Shown here piece by piece: positions 1,184 through 64,000 of a stretch of DNA of 64,000 nucleotides (its first letter is position 1; each line of letters begins with the position of its first letter). A model generated the notes under the pieces. It saw only the letters and a program-made list of their open reading frames with translations. It searched no databases and was not told where the DNA came from. This DNA is from Methanolobus sp. GTDB taxonomy: Archaea > Halobacteriota > Methanosarcinia > Methanosarcinales > Methanosarcinaceae. Made by a program: the position numbers and the translations under genes. Location: the NCBI GenBank assembly GCA_029762595.1, contig JARVGJ010000007.1:1-64000 (forward strand), written 5' to 3'.

Positions 1184-3898
1184 TTGTCAGATGAAAGGGA
1201 CTTCCAATGCAGACCCGTCGGTGATGAACATCGTGTCTCAGAGCAACAGATCCTTGAAAGGCTTAATGCAACAGCCGAAGGTTTATCATCTGATGAGGCA
1301 AAGCGCAGGATAGGACTCTGCGGAAAGAATGTTTTTGAGGAAACTGAAAAAGAAAATCTTCTTGCAAGATACCTGAAACAGTACAGGAATTTCTTTTCAA
1401 TACTGCTGCTTTTTGGATCCATGCTCGCATTCGTCGCTGAATGGCTTGGTCCGGGACAGGGCAATATATTCATAGCCATTGCACTGCTGGGAGTTGTGAT
1501 ACTCAACGGGAGTTTTACCTTTATCCAGGAATACCAGGCAGAGAGGATAATGGCGAGTTTCAGGGACCTCATCCCTTCAGGATCACAGGTCTTTCGGGAT
1601 GGAAAGCTCACAGAAATACCTGCAACCGAGATAGTTGTCGGTGATGTGATCTATATTGAGGAGGGAGACAAGGTCCCTGCAGATGGCAGGCTTATCGAAG
1701 AGAACTCACTGAAGGTTGATAACTCCCCAATAACCGGAGAGGCCGAACCACAATTGCGTTCCCTGCAATGCACAGATCCGGAAATGCTTGAATGCAGGAA
1801 CATGGTCTTTTCAGGAACACTTGTCCAGACAGGTAATGGTAAAGCCATTGTATTTGCAACCGGGTCGAATACCCAGATCGGCAAACTTGCAGCATTGACA
1901 GAAGAGACATCTTCTGTAGACACTCCCATTCGCAAAGAGCTCAATGATTTTATCAGGATAATATCCTCAATTGCCATATTCTTGGGTATTGTATTTTTCA
2001 TTATAGGTTTCCTCATCCAGGACAGGTTCCTGTCCAACCTCATATTTGCCATCGGCATCATTGTTGCAAACGTACCTGAAGGGCTCCTTCCAACAGTAAC
2101 CCTTGCCCTGAGCCTTTCCTCTAAAAAGATGGCAAAAAAAAATGCATTGATAAAACAACTGGAGTCCGTTGAGACACTGGGATCAACAACTGTGATCTGT
2201 ACCGATAAAACCGGTACCCTTACCCAGAACAGGATGAACGTACATTCCGTATACACCGGTTCAGGCCTGGTGGATGTCAAAAACAAGGAAAAACCGCCTC
2301 ATATGCTGCTCCGTGTGGCCACAGTGTGCAACAATTCATCACTTATAGAAGAGAGTCCGGGATACAGGGGCGATCCCACAGAGGGTTCCCTGCTTGTATA
2401 TGCAAGTGGGTTCACAGATATCGGGAAGATGAGAGACCTGTATCCCAGGAAAGAAGAATTCCCGTTTGATTCAAAGAAAGAAAGAATGCAGGTGATCTGC
2501 ACAACACCTGAGGGAGAGATGGAAGCATACCTTAAGGGAGCACCTGAAGTGGTCCTTGGGATGTGCAGCCATGTATTGGTTGACGGGGAAGAGATAGAAC
2601 TTGACAAAGAGCAGAGAAAGATACTGGAAGAAGAGCACCTCTCCCTGGCAGGAAAAGGAGAGAGGGTGCTTGCCTTTGCCTGGAGGAAGGCAGATACTGT
2701 CAGGGAATACGAGAACGGTTTTTCCTTCCTGGGATTTACAGGAGCTGTGGACCCGCCCAGACCCCAGGTGAAGGAAGCCATAAGGAAGTGCCACAGGGCA
2801 GGCATTAAGGTAGTGATGATAACAGGAGACCACCCTGTGACTGCACGCTCCATTGCTGCAACTGTTGGACTGACAAATGATGATATTGAACCTGAACTTA
2901 TAACAGGTTCTGAACTTGCAGAGCTTACAACAGAAGAGCTAATGCAGAGATTAAAGGCGCCCAGCATAATATTTGCAAGGACATCTCCCGTGCAGAAACT
3001 AAAGATAGTACATGCCTTCCAGGCAGCAGGTGAGATAGTCACGATGACCGGGGATGGAGTGAATGACGCACCGGCCATGAAGACTGCGGACATGGGGGTT
3101 GCCATGGGAAGCGGTACTGATGTTGCAAGGGAAGCAGCTGATATGGTCCTGCTGGATGATAACTTTGCAACCATCGTCAGCGCAATAGAAGAGGGAAGGA
3201 CAGTATATGATAATATAAAGAAGTTCATAGCCTACATCCTCACAAGCAATATACCTCAGATTTTGCCTTTTATAGCCTTTGTATTGCTGGGACTGCCGCT
3301 GCCGATGAACGTACAGCTCATCCTTGCCATAGACCTTGGTACCGACATACTCCCGGCACTTGGCCTGGCAGTGGAGAAAGGAGAAGGGGATATAATGAAA
3401 CGTCCACCGCGACAGAAGGATGAGAAACTGCTTACTCCACAGGTGCTGTTCACATCCTATGGCATTAAAGGACCCATTGAGGCAGCTGCAGGATTTGCCT
3501 GCTACTTTGCAGTGCTGTTTGACGGAGGATGGAAATGGGGTCAGCAACTTCCATTCACAGATATACTTTACATGCAGGCCATAACAGCTTTCTTTGCAGC
3601 TGTGATCATATGCCAGGTAGCAAACGTATTCACCTCAAGGACAAGGCGGGAATCCGTATTAACAAAAGGTATCCTGGGTAATCGAATGGTACTTGTAGGT
3701 ATCGCAAGTGAGATCCTTATCCTTTCACTCATCATCTTCAACCCATTTGTCGGTATGATATTCAACACTACGGCAATATCACTGAAATATATCATCATAG
3801 CAATACCATTTGCCCTGCTCTTGCTGCTAACAGATGAGCTCAGGAAATATGCCATCCGAAAAGAATCGGCATTTGCCACCCATGTCCTGAAATGGTGA
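1184..3898 (+). CDS. P-type ATPase, type IIC-like (Na,K-ATPase family)
   Basis: A cation-pumping P-type ATPase of 904 residues in the cell membrane. The order is an N-terminal cation-ATPase domain, two helices, the actuator domain (DNSPITGEAEPQ, matching the TGES-type loop of Na,K-ATPase), the M4 motif NVPEGLL (P298, E299), the phosphorylation site DKTGT with D341, the nucleotide domain, the hinge TGDGVNDAPA and six C-terminal helices. M6 reads IDLGTDILPA, so D717 and D721 match the Na,K-ATPase cation aspartates. M5 reads SNIPQ where Na,K-ATPase has SNIPE, so Q692 replaces a key glutamate. The TTG at 1184 directly follows an in-frame stop and is the only early start. The transported ion (Na+, K+ or H+) is not determined by sequence, and no beta-subunit gene is nearby. 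Confidence 0.9.
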   Translation: MSDERDFQCRPVGDEHRVSEQQILERLNATAEGLSSDEAKRRIGLCGKNVFEETEKENLLARYLKQYRNFFSILLLFGSMLAFVAEWLGPGQGNIFIAIALLGVVILNGSFTFIQEYQAERIMASFRDLIPSGSQVFRDGKLTEIPATEIVVGDVIYIEEGDKVPADGRLIEENSLKVDNSPITGEAEPQLRSLQCTDPEMLECRNMVFSGTLVQTGNGKAIVFATGSNTQIGKLAALTEETSSVDTPIRKELNDFIRIISSIAIFLGIVFFIIGFLIQDRFLSNLIFAIGIIVANVPEGLLPTVTLALSLSSKKMAKKNALIKQLESVETLGSTTVICTDKTGTLTQNRMNVHSVYTGSGLVDVKNKEKPPHMLLRVATVCNNSSLIEESPGYRGDPTEGSLLVYASGFTDIGKMRDLYPRKEEFPFDSKKERMQVICTTPEGEMEAYLKGAPEVVLGMCSHVLVDGEEIELDKEQRKILEEEHLSLAGKGERVLAFAWRKADTVREYENGFSFLGFTGAVDPPRPQVKEAIRKCHRAGIKVVMITGDHPVTARSIAATVGLTNDDIEPELITGSELAELTTEELMQRLKAPSIIFARTSPVQKLKIVHAFQAAGEIVTMTGDGVNDAPAMKTADMGVAMGSGTDVAREAADMVLLDDNFATIVSAIEEGRTVYDNIKKFIAYILTSNIPQILPFIAFVLLGLPLPMNVQLILAIDLGTDILPALGLAVEKGEGDIMKRPPRQKDEKLLTPQVLFTSYGIKGPIEAAAGFACYFAVLFDGGWKWGQQLPFTDILYMQAITAFFAAVIICQVANVFTSRTRRESVLTKGILGNRMVLVGIASEILILSLIIFNPFVGMIFNTTAISLKYIIIAIPFALLLLLTDELRKYAIRKESAFATHVLKW

Positions 3899-3900
3899 AA

Positions 3901-4755
3901 TTATGCGCCCTTTTTGCGAAAGACAACTTCGGTGTGTGGATATGCAATCTCCACATCATCTGATTCCTTTATACGGTCAAATATTTCCTTTGTTATCTTT
4001 GAGGAATACTCGTGCAACTGTCTGGCAGGAGAGAAATATTTCACCTGGACATCTATCCCGCTTGGCTGAAAATCGATACGTACCTTCGGAGCTGCCGGGC
4101 TGGTACCGATCATACCTGCCAGATATTTCCTTGCGGAAAGATCAGCTATTTCCATTGCCTTATCGAGGTTGCTCTCATATGTGACATTCACGATAACACT
4201 GTCAAGTACAAAATCATTGTTGAGGGTATAATCGATTACATTCTTCTCAAACAACATCCAGTTTGGGACCATGATTATCCTTCCGGATGATTCTTCATCA
4301 CCTGTCAGGCCTCCAACTTCCATAAGATGTATGTGGGTCAGATTTATGTCTGCAATATCCCCTTTCACATCACCTATGATTACCCTGTCTCCGATATCAA
4401 AAGGTCTCTTGGTTACCACCATCAGCCATGCAGCTACACCAGTGATGGGTTTCTGGAGAGCAAATCCTATTGCCGCTGAAAGAAGACCCAGGAACAGGCC
4501 AATACCAGACCCTGCGCCGGAATAGGAAAGAACAGCAAAGAGTACTATCAGAAGAGAGAGAGAGTATCTGAATATCTGAATGAAGATCTTTATATTAGAG
4601 CGCTGTTTCTTAGTCCTTCCCATGTTAATAAGGTTAGGCCTTATTATCTTGAAAAGAACATTCAAAGCGATCAACAGGAAAATAACGATCAGGGCTGTGA
4701 AACCAACAGACAATAATTTATCATAATCAAGCATCTGCTGTAAATCGAGTTCCAT
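3901..4755 (-). CDS. MscS-type mechanosensitive ion channel
   Basis: A small-conductance mechanosensitive channel of 284 residues that releases solutes under hypo-osmotic shock. It has three N-terminal helices (about residues 15-37, 62-82 and 88-115). The third is the glycine/alanine-rich pore helix (GLLSAAIGFALQKPITG) and is followed by the MscS beta-domain (RPFDIGDRVIIGDVKGDI) and an alpha-beta C-terminal domain. It ends two bases from the stop of the convergent P-type ATPase gene. It lies downstream of the four-repeat protein gene on the same strand, about 60 bases away, so the two may be cotranscribed. A second MscS (14613-15539) is only distantly similar. Confidence 0.92.
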   Translation of the reverse strand: MELDLQQMLDYDKLLSVGFTALIVIFLLIALNVLFKIIRPNLINMGRTKKQRSNIKIFIQIFRYSLSLLIVLFAVLSYSGAGSGIGLFLGLLSAAIGFALQKPITGVAAWLMVVTKRPFDIGDRVIIGDVKGDIADINLTHIHLMEVGGLTGDEESSGRIIMVPNWMLFEKNVIDYTLNNDFVLDSVIVNVTYESNLDKAMEIADLSARKYLAGMIGTSPAAPKVRIDFQPSGIDVQVKYFSPARQLHEYSSKITKEIFDRIKESDDVEIAYPHTEVVFRKKGA

Positions 4756-31519: not shown

Positions 31520-34117
31520 ATGGAAAATAAGAGAGTAGTTTATCTGCCGATATTAGCAATAGCAGTTGTTGTAATGCTGACAGGCGTTGCCATTGCTGCA
31601 AACAATAGTACCGGTAATCGTATATGGGACGCAAATGAGAACATGTCCCTTGAATATACATGGACCGCACTGAGCTATTCAGGATTCTATTACGATCTTG
31701 ATTCAGGTGTAGGCTCGGAAACACTTACAATAAAACTGGACAGCAACACTGACAGGAGTATAGGTGAGGGAGACCTTGAATATTCCACATCGCCTATAAC
31801 TACGGGTTTTGAACAAAGGGCCTGGGGGTCCTACCAGGTGATCGGATTCATGGCTGAGCGTTACTTTGCAGGTTACACGGATGATACCGGCTTTACTGAT
31901 GAGGTCAGCCTCATATCTGATGGTATACTTACAAAGGTGCTGCTTGACAATGACCAGAGGTTTTCCCTTTATACAGGTGCCTCACTTGTACTTGAAGAAG
32001 GATACGAGTTGAATATTGTGGAAGTTGACCTGAATGGTAACAGTGTGATGGTGACCCTGGAAAAGGACGGGACTGAAATTGACACCGATATTATATCATC
32101 AGGTAGCGATTATGTATATGATACAGAGCTTGGTACGGATGATGTGGTGATAATAGCCGTACATTTTGACAATATATTCCAGGGAAGAGAGACAAATGCC
32201 GTGTTTGTGGAAGGTGTGTTCCAGATATCTGAGAATTATATCGAAATACAAGCAGGTGATTCTTTTGGCAGGATGGAAGTCACAGCCCTGAGTCCTGATG
32301 AAATAAAAATGGAGAACTCACGTTCTATCAGTCTTGGAAGAGGAAATACCATAAATATTATGGGCAAACTGAAATTTGTGGTTGCTGATGACAGCACCCT
32401 GAGATTTGGTCCGGTGCTTGACATGTCAGTTCCTGGCATATATGAGCTAAGAGGTACTGTTGCAGAGAGTGAGTTCAAATGGACACCATTGAATTTTGAA
32501 GGATTCTACTACAATATTGATGAAGGTGTTGGAACCGAATCCCTTGAGATAACAGAGCTCACAGGCAGAAATATACGTATCGGTGACCTTGTTTACAGGA
32601 GCGAGCCTTTGGAAGTCAGTTTCGAGCGTAATCAATGGGGTCAGTTCCAGGTGATAGGATTCATGGCAGAGAAATACTTCGCCGGATACCCGGACAATGA
32701 ATTCACAGATGATGTAAGTCTTCTTTCTAGCGGCCAGCTCTCAAAGGTGCTTATCGATGATGACAGCAAAAAATCCCTTTACACAGGTTCATCCCTGATA
32801 CTTGAGGAAGGATATGAGCTGCGTATAATAGAAGTTGACCTTAACGGCAACAGCGTAATGATCGATCTTATGAAGAATGGCAATAACGTTGATACAGATA
32901 TAATTTCTGCCAATGACGACTATGTCTATAAGATGGATATCGACTCAACAGATGATGTACCTGTAATAGTAGTGCATCTTGCTAGTATATTCCGGGGAAC
33001 AGAGACAAACGCTGTGTTCGTTGAAGGTATCTTCCAGATATCCGAAGAAGTGATCGAAATAGAATCAGGTGAGCGCTTTGGACGGATGGAAGTCGTAAGC
33101 TTCTCTGAAAATGAGATAGTCCTTGAGAACAGGAATTCGGTCTCACTGTCAAGAGGAAACACTATCAACATCATGGGAGATGTCTCATTGAAAGTCGCTG
33201 ATTCCGGTGATATACGCTACTATCCATTCTTACAGGTATCCACTCTTCCTTCACAGTCACTATCCATTGATATGCCTGCTGTTATTAGACAGAACGAAGC
33301 AGTGGGAATAAAGGTTACTTCCAGAGGGGCAGCCGTGGACAATGCTGTTGTGATGTTTGGCAATAACAACGTGGGCAGAACTGCAACTGAAGGGACCATA
33401 TCCTATATACCAATAAATGCAGGCACTTTTACAGTCACTGCTGAGAAGGACGGCTTTGTCTCTGCGAGCAAGAGAGTTGAGGTAATCTCACCAGAGGATG
33501 CCAGCAGAAAACTTGTAATCGAAGTATCCCCTGAAAAGATAATTGAAGGAGAGACTATTACGATCTCGGTGATCACTGCCATCGCCGGGGACCCGGTTGA
33601 AGACGTGCAAGTCTACTATGATAAAAACCTCATTGGAACTACCGATACGGATGGAAACCTGGCATACATTGTAACAGAACCGGGCATGCATAAACTGAGC
33701 ACTTCGGCAGATGATTACCTTGAGGCTGAGCTTAATCTGGAGGTCCTTGCACTTGAAGCGAAGTTCTCATATTCCAATCTGCAGGTGACACCACTTCTGG
33801 TCAGGACCGGGGAAGATGTCACTGTTACCGTGGATGTGATGAACACAGGCACTTCTGCCGGCCAGACAGATGTGATGCTGCTTATCAACGGTGCTGTTGC
33901 AGGATCTGAGAACGTCTCACTTGATGCAGGAGAGGAAACAACATTGACATTTACCATCTCACAGGATGAGGCAGGGAGCTATGAAGTACAGGTTGGCGAT
34001 TCTACCGCGGTTTTTGTAGTGGAGAAAAGCGCCCTCCCTGCACCTGGTATTGTTGTTGCTGTTATCGCTGTGATGGCAATGGCCTTGCTGATCCGCAGGA
34101 AGGAACGACAAAAGTGA
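31520..34117 (+). CDS. Major S-layer protein, tandem DUF1608 (sarcinarray type) with CARDB domain
   Basis: The likely S-layer lattice protein of the cell wall, 865 residues. An N-terminal signal peptide is followed by two DUF1608 copies starting near residues 48 and 321, about 273 residues apart (WTALSYSGFYYDLDSGVGSE and WTPLNFEGFYYNIDEGVGTE). Two Ig-like beta domains (about 575-745) and one CARDB domain (about 750-833, LLVRTGEDVTVTVDV) follow. The C-terminal LPAPGIVVAVIAVMAMALL stretch with an RRKERQK tail resembles PGF-CTERM anchors, though the motif reads A-P-G-I. Related Methanosarcina S-layer proteins are shorter (about 670), so the CARDB/Ig part is an extension. A strong TATA box precedes it. 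Confidence 0.92.
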   Translation: MENKRVVYLPILAIAVVVMLTGVAIAANNSTGNRIWDANENMSLEYTWTALSYSGFYYDLDSGVGSETLTIKLDSNTDRSIGEGDLEYSTSPITTGFEQRAWGSYQVIGFMAERYFAGYTDDTGFTDEVSLISDGILTKVLLDNDQRFSLYTGASLVLEEGYELNIVEVDLNGNSVMVTLEKDGTEIDTDIISSGSDYVYDTELGTDDVVIIAVHFDNIFQGRETNAVFVEGVFQISENYIEIQAGDSFGRMEVTALSPDEIKMENSRSISLGRGNTINIMGKLKFVVADDSTLRFGPVLDMSVPGIYELRGTVAESEFKWTPLNFEGFYYNIDEGVGTESLEITELTGRNIRIGDLVYRSEPLEVSFERNQWGQFQVIGFMAEKYFAGYPDNEFTDDVSLLSSGQLSKVLIDDDSKKSLYTGSSLILEEGYELRIIEVDLNGNSVMIDLMKNGNNVDTDIISANDDYVYKMDIDSTDDVPVIVVHLASIFRGTETNAVFVEGIFQISEEVIEIESGERFGRMEVVSFSENEIVLENRNSVSLSRGNTINIMGDVSLKVADSGDIRYYPFLQVSTLPSQSLSIDMPAVIRQNEAVGIKVTSRGAAVDNAVVMFGNNNVGRTATEGTISYIPINAGTFTVTAEKDGFVSASKRVEVISPEDASRKLVIEVSPEKIIEGETITISVITAIAGDPVEDVQVYYDKNLIGTTDTDGNLAYIVTEPGMHKLSTSADDYLEAELNLEVLALEAKFSYSNLQVTPLLVRTGEDVTVTVDVMNTGTSAGQTDVMLLINGAVAGSENVSLDAGEETTLTFTISQDEAGSYEVQVGDSTAVFVVEKSALPAPGIVVAVIAVMAMALLIRRKERQK

Positions 34118-34169
34118 GGAAACGTATGTTAGTACAGACCATTGAATCATAAAGAACGGAAGTATCCTT

Positions 34170-34200
34170 GTGCCTGCCTTTTTGGCAGGTACATATTTAT
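34170..34200 (+). terminator. Hairpin terminator after the S-layer gene
   Basis: GTGCCTGCC and GGCAGGTAC pair (nine bases with one G-U) around a T5 loop and are followed by an AT-rich, T-containing tail, about 50 bases after the S-layer stop. Confidence 0.65.
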
Positions 34201-59981: not shown

Positions 59982-60818
59982 TTATATATTTTGGTTTGTA
60001 TCAACCGTATCTTCAAGAATAACTATATTACCCCTGCCTTTCCTGTATTTCCGGACTATACCACGACTTTCAAGGTCAGATATCATCAGGCTGACCTTTG
60101 CTTCAGAATGTCGTACCTTTGTACGTAACTCCCTCTGGGTTATGCGACCATCGTTCCTGGCAATTATATCGACAAGCTCCCTTAGATCGGCTGGAAGGTC
60201 CTGTGATCTGTCTGCAGGTAATGCCATGTGGCCTTCCTCACCGGTGACCTCTTCTTCTTCTTCTTCTTCAGGGACAGAAGCAGCTCTTCTGCGTCTTGTG
60301 TAAAAATAGGCAAAAAGCACTACAATGAGGAAAAGGACCAGCATAATAGAAATTGGTGTGGAAATGAATACATTTTCTTCATCCACATCTGCAAAAAAAG
60401 CAATTTCATCAAGTTCTGTAAATTCATTTTCATCGAATAAAGGGTCATAATATACAGGAAACAAGAGCAGGTCCTTTACATAGTCACCGTCATCAGCGAT
60501 GTATATTTTCTCTTCGGTATATGCCACCAGGTCATCCCCTGTATAGTAGCTGGCAGATATGACATAATGACCCGGCACCAGATCAAAGGAATATATACCA
60601 TGCTTTGCAAGCATGGATTGTGGCGGTGTGGAGTTCACCTGAACGATCACATTCTCCAGAGGATCAAAGGATCCCCACTCATACACCGCTCCGTGTATGG
60701 TGGAAACCCCCCCTGCAGCGTTCGAAGTATGAACACCTGAAAGTAGCACAATGCCCATTAAAAGTAGCAGCATTACATTTTTCCGGAACACAGGATTATA
60801 TTTATCAAGTAAAACCAT
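59982..60818 (-). CDS. Membrane-anchored winged-helix transcription regulator
   Basis: A 278-residue protein with a signal peptide (about 13-36), an external beta-sandwich of the carboxypeptidase-regulatory-like type (G-G-V-S-T-I-H-G-A-V-Y-E-W near 37-120) and one helix (about 152-175). The cytoplasmic part has a basic R-R-R-R stretch and a run of eight glutamates, broken once, then a C-terminal winged helix (I-T-Q-R-E-L-R-T-K-V near 225). It looks like a one-protein signal transducer linking an outside signal to DNA binding. GGGAGA precedes the ATG. Confidence 0.82.
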   Translation of the reverse strand: MVLLDKYNPVFRKNVMLLLLMGIVLLSGVHTSNAAGGVSTIHGAVYEWGSFDPLENVIVQVNSTPPQSMLAKHGIYSFDLVPGHYVISASYYTGDDLVAYTEEKIYIADDGDYVKDLLLFPVYYDPLFDENEFTELDEIAFFADVDEENVFISTPISIMLVLFLIVVLFAYFYTRRRRAASVPEEEEEEEVTGEEGHMALPADRSQDLPADLRELVDIIARNDGRITQRELRTKVRHSEAKVSLMISDLESRGIVRKYRKGRGNIVILEDTVDTNQNI

Positions 60819-61064
60819 ATAATTGTTTCTCCCTAACTCAAATTAAAGAGTTACAAAGTTTCATGAAGTAAAATAAACGATCAAAAGCCTTCTTTTCATT
60901 CAGGAATACCCTTTCGGCTCCCATAAAGTAAAGCATGCTTATATCCTTCACGGAGAATCCTTTAATTACAAGTGCAAGTTGTATTTACCACATGGCTACT
61001 GCCAGCCCCCCTTCTTGCACTTACATAGAAATTATATGAAAACGCCAGAAATGGAGGAAGAACT

Positions 61065-61349
61065 ATGAGTACAAAGAGATTTACATTAATTGCTGTAGCG
61101 CTTATGCTGACCAGTTTATTCGCAGTGACTGCCATGGCGGCAGACCAGCTAATAGAACAGTCCAATAATCAGCTGGAATATGGATCATGTCCGAATTTCA
61201 TTGATGAAGATGGTGATGGTATTTGTGACAATTTTGCAGATAGGTCATATAAAGGTCTTGGTAACAACTTCAGGGGAACCGGTACATGTGATTGGACCGG
61301 CCCGGACAGAATCCAGGAAAGAATAAGAGAGCGTTCATGCCAGAATTAA
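61065..61349 (+). CDS. Small exported protein with a calcium-type DxDGDG loop
   Basis: A 94-residue protein with a signal peptide (about 1-25), four cysteines in the mature part and the loop D-E-D-G-D-G-I-C-D near residue 50, which resembles a dockerin or thrombospondin-type-3 calcium site. GGAGGAA lies eight bases before the ATG. The C-terminus is rich in arginine (R-I-Q-E-R-I-R-E-R). No anchor is present, so it is probably secreted. Function unknown. Confidence 0.72.
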   Translation: MSTKRFTLIAVALMLTSLFAVTAMAADQLIEQSNNQLEYGSCPNFIDEDGDGICDNFADRSYKGLGNNFRGTGTCDWTGPDRIQERIRERSCQN

Positions 61350-61403
61350 AATGAAGTATGATGAATAAATAGAACAGAAGAACAGGGTGTCAAAAGAAAT
61401 TAA

Positions 61404-61442
61404 TCCGGCTACTATAAGAGAGAGAGAGCCAGAGAGAGCCGG
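61404..61442. repeat. Inverted repeat with GA-rich direct repeats upstream of the acidic secreted protein
   Basis: CCGGCT (61404-61409) and AGCCGG (61437-61442) flank a purine-rich stretch with two copies of AGAGAGAGCC. It lies about 75 bases before the start at 61517. Confidence 0.5.
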
Positions 61443-61516
61443 ATATTTTCAATTATAATATCACCAAAATTATTAGAAATCATAAAATGAATATTAGAGA
61501 ACTGGAGGATTATCTT

Positions 61517-62866
61517 ATGGAAAAAACAGAATCGAGAATATTTGCAGTCTTTGCCGTACTTTTGATGCTGATGAGCATCCTTCCGGCAGGAGCACTTGCA
61601 GCATCTGACAATGCAAAGAATGATGATATGAGATTTAAGGTTGGAAACGCTGCAAATGAAAATAGGACTTATGATAATGATCAGACAGAAGACAATGCCG
61701 ATGAAGATGATCCCACAGATACAGCACCAGCACACATCAGGGTCCATGACAGGGACAGGGACATGGTGAACGCAATTGAGGATGCCACAAGAAAAAAGAA
61801 TGAAGCAATGAATGATGCAGCCAGATATCAGGCAGCTAAGAACAATTTTGCTCAAATGAGGGCAAACAACCCTAACATTGACACTGAAGAAGCGATCAAT
61901 GCTACCAGGGAATATCTCAACAGTTCGGTCAGCTATATGATATCACTTCTTGACGAGGAAGAAGACAATGAATACATCGAAAAACTGGAAGCTATAAGGG
62001 AAGATGTGTATGCTGCAACAACAAGAAAGGAACTTGCCGATGCTGCAAAGGATATCAGGAATGTCTGGAATGATGGCCGTAAGGATCGTATCGTGTCTTC
62101 AGGAAAAGCCATAGACAACAGGATGAATGCAATTATCAGGACATCAGAAGGCCTTATGCTACGTCTGGAGAATGAGATTGCTACGATGAAGGAAAATGGA
62201 GAGGATGTGGAAGAGCTGGAAGAAATGCTTGTAGAGTACAAGGAGCTCATATCTGAGGCGAAAGAGAACAGGGAACGTGCAATGAATACCTACATGAACG
62301 GAAACGGAAACGTCGGGGAAAATGTAAGGGAAGCTAATAGGTACATCACAAAGGCAGGTCAGGACATCAGGGATGCAAATGCAATCCTCAAAAACATGCT
62401 CAAAGAACTCAAACAACATAGAGAAGGCGTGATTGCACTATCAGGAAATGAGGATCTGAATGCTGAAGGTGATGGTACAGCTGTCATCTCAGGTAATATC
62501 AGTATAGACCTTACGGTCAATGATTCAAAACTTGTGGTCAAAGACCTTGCAGGTGATGCCAGGATAGATGGCCTGGATAATGCACAATACGGATCATCAA
62601 ACATGGATGCAGGCAACAGTACGGACAACAACCGTGCATTTGTCTTCATGAACATCACTGCTGACCTGTACATTGAAGGAAGCCGCCTGACTGTCATGGT
62701 CCGGGGATCGGATATTGAACTGACAACCAGGGGAACTGGGACGGCAGTACTCTCCGGCAATGGAACATATGAAATAGGAGAAGAATCCGGCAGCTGGGCA
62801 GGTAACTATGCAGACCCCGATGATGTTGAAGAAAATGAAGAAGATAATGGAGAGGAAGAAGAATGA
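61517..62866 (+). CDS. Acidic exported coiled-coil protein, function unknown
   Basis: The frame opens at 61487, but GGAGG at 61504-61508 and the signal peptide fit the ATG at 61517 (449 residues). After the signal peptide come an acidic linker, about 200 residues of charged helix (probable coiled coil), and a beta-rich C-terminal domain. In that domain G-D-G-T-A-V-I-S-G-N and G-T-G-T-A-V-L-S-G-N mark two related halves. A run of E/D residues ends the chain. No anchor is seen. It overlaps a lipoprotein gene by four bases, which may provide the membrane attachment. Confidence 0.72.
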   Translation: MEKTESRIFAVFAVLLMLMSILPAGALAASDNAKNDDMRFKVGNAANENRTYDNDQTEDNADEDDPTDTAPAHIRVHDRDRDMVNAIEDATRKKNEAMNDAARYQAAKNNFAQMRANNPNIDTEEAINATREYLNSSVSYMISLLDEEEDNEYIEKLEAIREDVYAATTRKELADAAKDIRNVWNDGRKDRIVSSGKAIDNRMNAIIRTSEGLMLRLENEIATMKENGEDVEELEEMLVEYKELISEAKENRERAMNTYMNGNGNVGENVREANRYITKAGQDIRDANAILKNMLKELKQHREGVIALSGNEDLNAEGDGTAVISGNISIDLTVNDSKLVVKDLAGDARIDGLDNAQYGSSNMDAGNSTDNNRAFVFMNITADLYIEGSRLTVMVRGSDIELTTRGTGTAVLSGNGTYEIGEESGSWAGNYADPDDVEENEEDNGEEEE

Positions 62867-63144
62867 ACTTCTTCAGAAAGATCGTGACCTTTGCCCTCAT
62901 ACTCTCCATTGTTGTGGTTTCAGGATGTATGGATGAAAGCATCACTGAAGATGGAAACGCAAGTGATGATCTAGCAGGTCCGGGTAATGAGCAGGAGATC
63001 AGTGTTGCAGACATGGCCCTTAGTGAAGATATGGTAGGTATTACAGATAGCGAGATGCAGGAACTTGAAGCACAGATTGAAGAGCTTGAAGCACTTATTA
63101 ATGAAATGAGCCTTGAGGAAGAAATTGTTCCTGAAGAGATATGA
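62863..63144 (+). CDS. Small acidic lipoprotein coupled to the coiled-coil protein
   Basis: A 93-residue lipoprotein with lipobox V-V-S-G-C (near residue 22) and a mature part that is mostly glutamate-rich helix with heptad-like leucines (L-E-A-Q-I-E-E-L-E-A-L-I). It is translationally coupled to the preceding gene (ATGA overlap), so the two products may form a complex at the cell surface. No known family was recognised. Confidence 0.72.
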   Translation: MNFFRKIVTFALILSIVVVSGCMDESITEDGNASDDLAGPGNEQEISVADMALSEDMVGITDSEMQELEAQIEELEALINEMSLEEEIVPEEI

Positions 63145-63360: not shown

Positions 63361-64000
63361 ATGGGAAACATGATAAAAACAACTTTACTGCTGGCATCCC
63401 TTACCGGTCTGCTGGTCATTGTAGGTCAGCTTATGGGCGGGACGTCAGGAATGATCATTGCATTCATATTTGCGATCATCATGAACTTTGGAACATACTG
63501 GTACAGTGATAAGATAGTGCTAAAAATGTATCATGCAAAAGAGGTCACTGCAGCAGAGGCCCCTCAGCTCTATGGAATAGTCCAGACGCTGGCCATGAAG
63601 GCAAACCTTCCGATGCCAAAAGTGTATATGGTGCATACATCCATGCCAAATGCATTTGCAACCGGCAGGGACCCAAAACACGCTGCAGTAGCTGCAACTA
63701 CAGGGATACTTGATCTACTGACAGCAGAAGAACTTGAAGGTGTGCTTGCCCATGAGCTTGCCCATGTCAAGAACCGTGATACATTGATCAGTGCTGTTGC
63801 AGCAACTATCGCAGGTGTCATAACAATGATTGCAACATGGGTGAAATGGGCAGCCATATTCGGAGGAATCGGCGGACGGGACGGTGAAGGAGCAAATAAC
63901 TTAATTGGGTTCCTTGCCCTTGCCATTGTAGCACCACTGGCAGCAACGATAATACAACTTGCAATATCAAGATCAAGGGAGTTCGCTGCCGATGCAGAAG
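63361..64000 (+). CDS. htpX: HtpX-type membrane zinc protease (cut by window end)
   Basis: The N-terminal 213 residues of an M48-family membrane protease involved in quality control of membrane proteins. Two helices (about 7-50) precede the catalytic domain. Visible motifs are P-N-A-F-A-T-G-R, the zinc site H-E-L-A-H (with V-K-N-R-D) and the third-ligand region [11 protein letters not shown] at the window edge. AAGGGG lies at a good distance before the ATG. The gene continues past 64000. Confidence 0.95.

Follow-up and report, generated by a model that had tools for sequence, protein, structure and literature searches.

The genes B and C of this Methanolobus locus, which encode an exported coiled-coil/beta protein and a lipoprotein, show strong linkage to a divergent gene, H, encoding a predicted membrane-anchored winged-helix regulator. 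We consider it somewhat probable that the three constitute one module, in which an archaeal transmembrane transcription regulator, served by exported proteins of its own, would autoregulate an envelope module. This reading is based on the linkage of the genes, their co-occurrence, the independent arrangements in which they recur, the architecture of H, and promoter elements that are nearly private to the module.

The window analysed is a 64,000-nucleotide stretch of contig JARVGJ010000007.1 from Methanolobus sp. As reported in the first-pass annotation, it carries the open reading frames A (61065–61349, + strand), B (61517–62866, +) and C (62863–63144, +) ahead of htpX (63361–64000, +, cut by the window end), which is listed on the basis of synteny and encodes an M48 membrane protease. 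H (59982–60818, − strand), divergent from B, lies outside the coordinates covered by that annotation. Judged by the B gene, the closest relatives are Methanolobus genomes. The gene order lig-hom-act-H followed by divergent (A)-B-C-htpX is kept in Methanolobus, Methanomethylovorans, Methanococcoides, Methanohalophilus and one ANME-3 genome, and the lig-hom-act-H/B-C order is kept in Methanosarcina-like genomes. By gene order, htpX is a conserved neighbour in Methanosarcinaceae that may possibly belong to the B-C-H module. A methanogen-type B-C-htpX arrangement also lies on a contig titled Clostridia bacterium (SZUA-448; L059), which is probably mis-binned. The cluster of three proteins originally described stands in part: B and C are conserved throughout the family and outside it, A is optional, and it is B, C and H that stay constant.

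Protein A is an exported 94-aa DxDGDG protein with a signal peptide (FIDEDGDGICDN). Of 24 Methanolobus main loci, 15 carry its gene and 9 do not, and it is missing from most other genera, so that co-occurrence in relatives holds for B and C and fails for A. The first-pass annotation had suggested that A, B and C form a calcium-dependent surface structure, an assembly that would suit three proteins that are all exported and acidic, one of which carries a DxDGDG loop and is probably co-transcribed with B. The losses of A speak against it, as does a Pfam search in which A matched no calcium-binding family (EF-hand, dockerin, thrombospondin type 3) and resembled them in the DxDGDG motif alone. We dropped this idea, which we regard as very improbable, because A is not conserved together with B-C. 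The S-layer family PF07752 was matched neither by A, B or C nor by the B homologues in the families searched.

The longest open reading frame of B begins at 61487 (459 aa); the start at 61517, giving 449 aa, was preferred because a ctggagga ribosome site lies 8–9 nt upstream and homologues start there. The resulting protein has a signal peptide ending in LPAGALA, helices at residues 72–301, a beta domain at 305–426 and an acidic tail. An alignment of 35 homologues confirmed that the two G-x-G-T-A-V-(I/L)-S-G-N halves noticed at first are real and conserved, with G318, G320, G326, G406, G408 and G416 invariant or nearly so. In profile searches A, B and C fell below every Pfam and NCBIfam cut-off, in agreement with the earlier statement that none could be assigned, and the conserved parts of the 35 B homologues likewise remained below these cut-offs; PKD domains occur in the tails of a few of them. 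The AF2 model of B (pLDDT 75) is helical plus beta. Searches with the whole model (Foldseek, VIA-align) returned generic helical bundles and nothing more specific, and a profile search of the PDB gave just coiled-coil noise and weak matches to phage gp5 spikes, with E above 0.01. Of 60 Methanosarcinales genomes, 54 were found to carry B. A 20-row alignment of B served for the contig scan, the set of 35 being too diverse.

Protein C is a 93-aa lipoprotein with the lipobox VVSGC, whose cysteine is invariant in 26 sequences, and a coiled-coil tail. Its gene comes after B at 24 of 25 Methanolobus loci and also across Methanosarcinaceae, and divergent C homologues adjoin distant B genes. Stop/start overlaps between B and C are frequent (at the locus itself, the four bases ATGA) and recur in distant lineages (L210, L211, L213 and L215). 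This conserved adjacency and the repeated four-base overlaps bear out the coupling of the two genes proposed from the sequence. The extreme C-terminus, ENITVEEI-like or DNISFDV-like, is among the most conserved parts of C and may serve as a recognition tail; its last residues, in EEI or ISFDV type endings, are kept even in distant lineages. At one locus a decayed tandem B copy has left a remnant (L051:3401–3640), and its C survives (3823–4110).

The 278-aa H protein is predicted to comprise a signal helix (residues 9–29), an extracytoplasmic beta domain (39–121), a transmembrane helix (154–180) and a cytoplasmic winged helix (202–268). The winged helix matched Pfam DUF7343 (E 6.6e-15) and HTH_24 (E 4.8e-5), both over the cut-off. 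In Foldseek searches with the AF2 model (pLDDT 80), the winged helix matched AF1382, and the ectodomain matched 3mn8, 5aq0 and 6hif_Y, which have a CnaB/transthyretin-like, Ig-like fold. The model thus portrays H as a single-pass protein with a CnaB/transthyretin-like domain outside and a winged helix inside. Both features used to recognise transmembrane transcription regulators, a predicted DNA-binding domain and at least one transmembrane region, were found in H.

Of the 82 H loci in the 60 Methanosarcinales genomes, 69 have a B gene no more than 3 kb away, compared with a chance expectation of roughly 1%, estimated for a 2.6-Mb genome with some three B genes. The pairs are divergent in 40 cases and arranged as B-then-H in 29; none is convergent. 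Adjacency recurs in separate families: H and B diverge in Methanosarcinaceae, f4, f5, f9 and f27, and f32 has a single B-C-H operon (L210). In f2, f3 and one f4 genome, H occurs away from B. In one Methanosarcina-like genome, a transposase-like gene (L216:4014–5006) sits between the divergent H and B and splits their shared promoter region. In a set of 296 genomes from the phylum, both genes occur in 100, B only in 5, H only in 4 and neither in 187 (counted by hand from listings, with an H threshold of E below 1e-25), giving a phi of 0.93 that is inflated by the relatedness of the genomes. Weak matches to the H profile (E about 1e-11 to 1e-18) occur in many other genomes of the phylum, which is consistent with these genomes sharing just the winged helix with H.

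The main rival to the module reading is that B and C could be the output of H rather than its sensor: B, C and also A would be structural or protective parts of the envelope and the main regulated product of an H that senses the outside alone. We hold this to be possible, though doubtful. It draws support from the mean identity of the H ectodomain, which at 0.61 exceeds that of B (0.38–0.52). The co-occurrence of B and H even where they are unlinked, however, fits partners better than it fits an exchangeable target. Distance-matrix co-variation was set aside as a main argument, since residual values were weak overall (0.05–0.44), with 0.44 for the H ectodomain and C versus 0.05–0.30 for H and B.

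Further copies of the pair, denoted B'-H', occur as operons in many genomes, at times in tandem. Their codirectional layout leaves little room for separate control of the two genes and again argues against B and C being a mere output. B' corresponds to residues ~217–436 of B and often starts with a lipobox, otherwise with a hydrophobic anchor; no separate C accompanies it, suggesting C as the anchor of B. In Methanosarcina-like genomes the B of the main locus has retained the coil but is without a beta domain; taken with the extent of B', this leaves the second helical region (~196–303) as the part common to all. An ABC operon encoding an ATPase, an exported protein of CARDB/NPCBM type and a permease of MacB/FtsX type adjoins B'-H' (L048:8413–11649, L082:7882–11157 and L033:8336–11726, in Methanolobus, Methanosarcina-like and Methanococcoides genomes). 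Also divergent from B'-H' are genes for exported coiled-coil proteins whose signal peptides resemble that of B (L032:10138–10911, L048:4969–5649, L082:4370–5329 and L217:10011–10841).

Two promoter elements and a leader stem were located between H and A. Element II (60854–60876, + strand) has the consensus TAAAGTWTNATCAAGYAAAATAR, with 2 mismatches at this locus, and element I (60923–60944, +) reads ATAAAGTAAAGCATGCTTATAT and likely includes the BRE/TATA box of the A-B-C transcript. Element I is kept upstream of B in Methanosarcinaceae and has one other match in its own genome, with 3 mismatches. Pattern searches over 27 Methanolobus genomes returned 28 matches to the element I 19-mer (up to 1 mismatch) and none to its reversed control; 25 lie upstream of B-operon copies, 2 at an S-layer gene and 1 on a small contig. 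Element II yielded 24 matches, against 2 for its reversed control, almost all of them at loci that also carry element I, 50 nt further downstream. In these 27 genomes, both elements are thus nearly private to the module. The match on the small contig (L146; G011:C105:1116) is exact and precedes a short uncharacterised ORF, possibly a mobile element carrying the promoter. At the paralogous loci, a 15-base core of element I was found ahead of B' in three genomes: G004, G024 and, with one mismatch, G019. It also precedes the ABC operon in Methanococcoides, and G028 has just two exact core matches, on either side of the B'-H' genes, one preceding the ABC operon. The core was likewise seen at the start of the L048 coiled-coil gene and, with one mismatch, upstream of that in L032.

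The mRNA leader contains a conserved stem, with arms at 60970–60978 (5' arm, + strand) and 61014–61022 (3' arm, +). Within the stem 98% of cells are paired, compared with 25–52% in slid controls, and 3 of its 8 pairs change on both sides; fold z-scores of the leader range from −0.9 to −4.2 in 8 sequences. Methanolobus start sites lie 19–22 nt downstream of BRE/TATA (PMC5378194), so that, with the start of the A-B-C mRNA predicted near 60965, only a few bases should separate its 5' end from the stem.

The same spacing, together with the TATA box inside element I, accords with an alternative in which the elements are simply the core promoter (BRE/TATA) and leader, strong and conserved, of surface proteins made in large amounts, and H regulates something else; element I may then be no operator of H. 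Two Methanolobus genomes, G004 and G024, carry B-type promoter elements on an S-layer orthologue, in G004 (L126) with the leader stem as well. This sharing of a promoter type speaks for the core promoter and, like the strong-looking promoter and structured leader that B-C possess, for B and C as output. A generic promoter should nevertheless mark many genes, whereas nearly all matches to the 19-mer fall at B, and element II lies outside a core promoter. Moreover, a second copy of element I, AAAGYATGCTTA, occurs about 27 nt upstream at some loci, and this points to more than a TATA box, namely a site bound by a protein. We therefore judge the core-promoter explanation unlikely. The S-layer (PF07752) gene of the window (31520–34175, +, end approximate) lies about 28 kb before B, in a synteny kept in relatives, and carries no match to the element. 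The S-layer gene was rejected as a conserved regulon member because the element is found in 2 of 25 orthologues; in G004 and G024 it apparently has a captured promoter.

Returning to the module reading, we propose that B and the lipoprotein C would sit side by side at the external surface of the membrane, with C anchoring B. The pair would respond to the state of the envelope, be it S-layer contact, a misfolded surface protein or a ligand, and alter H through its ectodomain. H in turn would bind the AAAGTATGCTTATAT-type element, which overlaps the TATA box in front of A-B-C, and probably also the element upstream of it, thereby autoregulating the module and, at paralogous loci, the adjacent MacB-like ABC operon. 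The initial suggestion that these proteins sense envelope stress remains plausible, with B-C linked to a membrane-anchored regulator, to a MacB-like ABC operon at the paralogous copies and to htpX. A full envelope-stress pathway, in which C reports surface damage to H and HtpX tunes the signal, appears to us a long shot. If true, this would be a transmembrane circuit tied to proteolysis and working without phosphorylation, independent of the sigma-E and Cpx types of bacteria. How envelope damage is sensed in archaea, with just an S-layer outside the membrane, is largely an open question, for which B, C and H offer a concrete conserved gene set with a candidate operator and leader stem. The H-B-C synteny is conserved in genetically tractable Methanosarcina, which makes the module testable there.

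DUF7343 is not mentioned in the papers searched, and no paper on the B-C-H module was found. Comparison is with systems of related architecture. The cytoplasmic domain of H belongs with the archaeal DUF7343 winged-helix proteins. Its ectodomain shares the fold of carboxypeptidase-regulatory, transthyretin-like and CnaB domains; unlike these, it has neither a carboxypeptidase nor a pilin context and is the presumed sensor. ArnR/ArnR1 of Sulfolobus, which regulates the archaellum and pili, is the archaeal entry in a table of characterised transmembrane regulators (PMC10269533, PMC6396743), the one such archaeal protein in that survey, and it has no known partner (PMC10269533). Like ArnR, H is an archaeal membrane-bound, predicted DNA-binding regulator without a kinase pair; in ArnR, unlike H, the HTH is N-terminal and no associated protein is listed (PMC10269533, PMC6396743).

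No sequence relation of H, B and C to ToxR/ToxS-type systems was found. ToxR itself has an N-terminal cytoplasmic winged helix and a C-terminal periplasmic domain, a topology reversed in H, where the ectodomain is N-terminal and the winged helix C-terminal. Some transmembrane transcription regulators work with associated proteins as cocomponent systems, such as ToxR/ToxS, and the ToxR/ToxS-type systems include TcpP/TcpH, PsaE and VtrA/VtrC (PMC10269533). In such cocomponent systems the associated protein changes how active or stable the regulator is, and many partners, though not all, are lipocalin-like; the model of B is helical plus beta, and its structure searches gave generic helical matches. 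The partners of H, a coiled-coil/beta protein and a lipoprotein, and its archaeal host are further points of difference. The likeness to ToxR/ToxS is that H is a predicted single-pass, membrane-anchored winged-helix regulator whose gene stands, at most of its loci, beside that of an extracytoplasmic partner.
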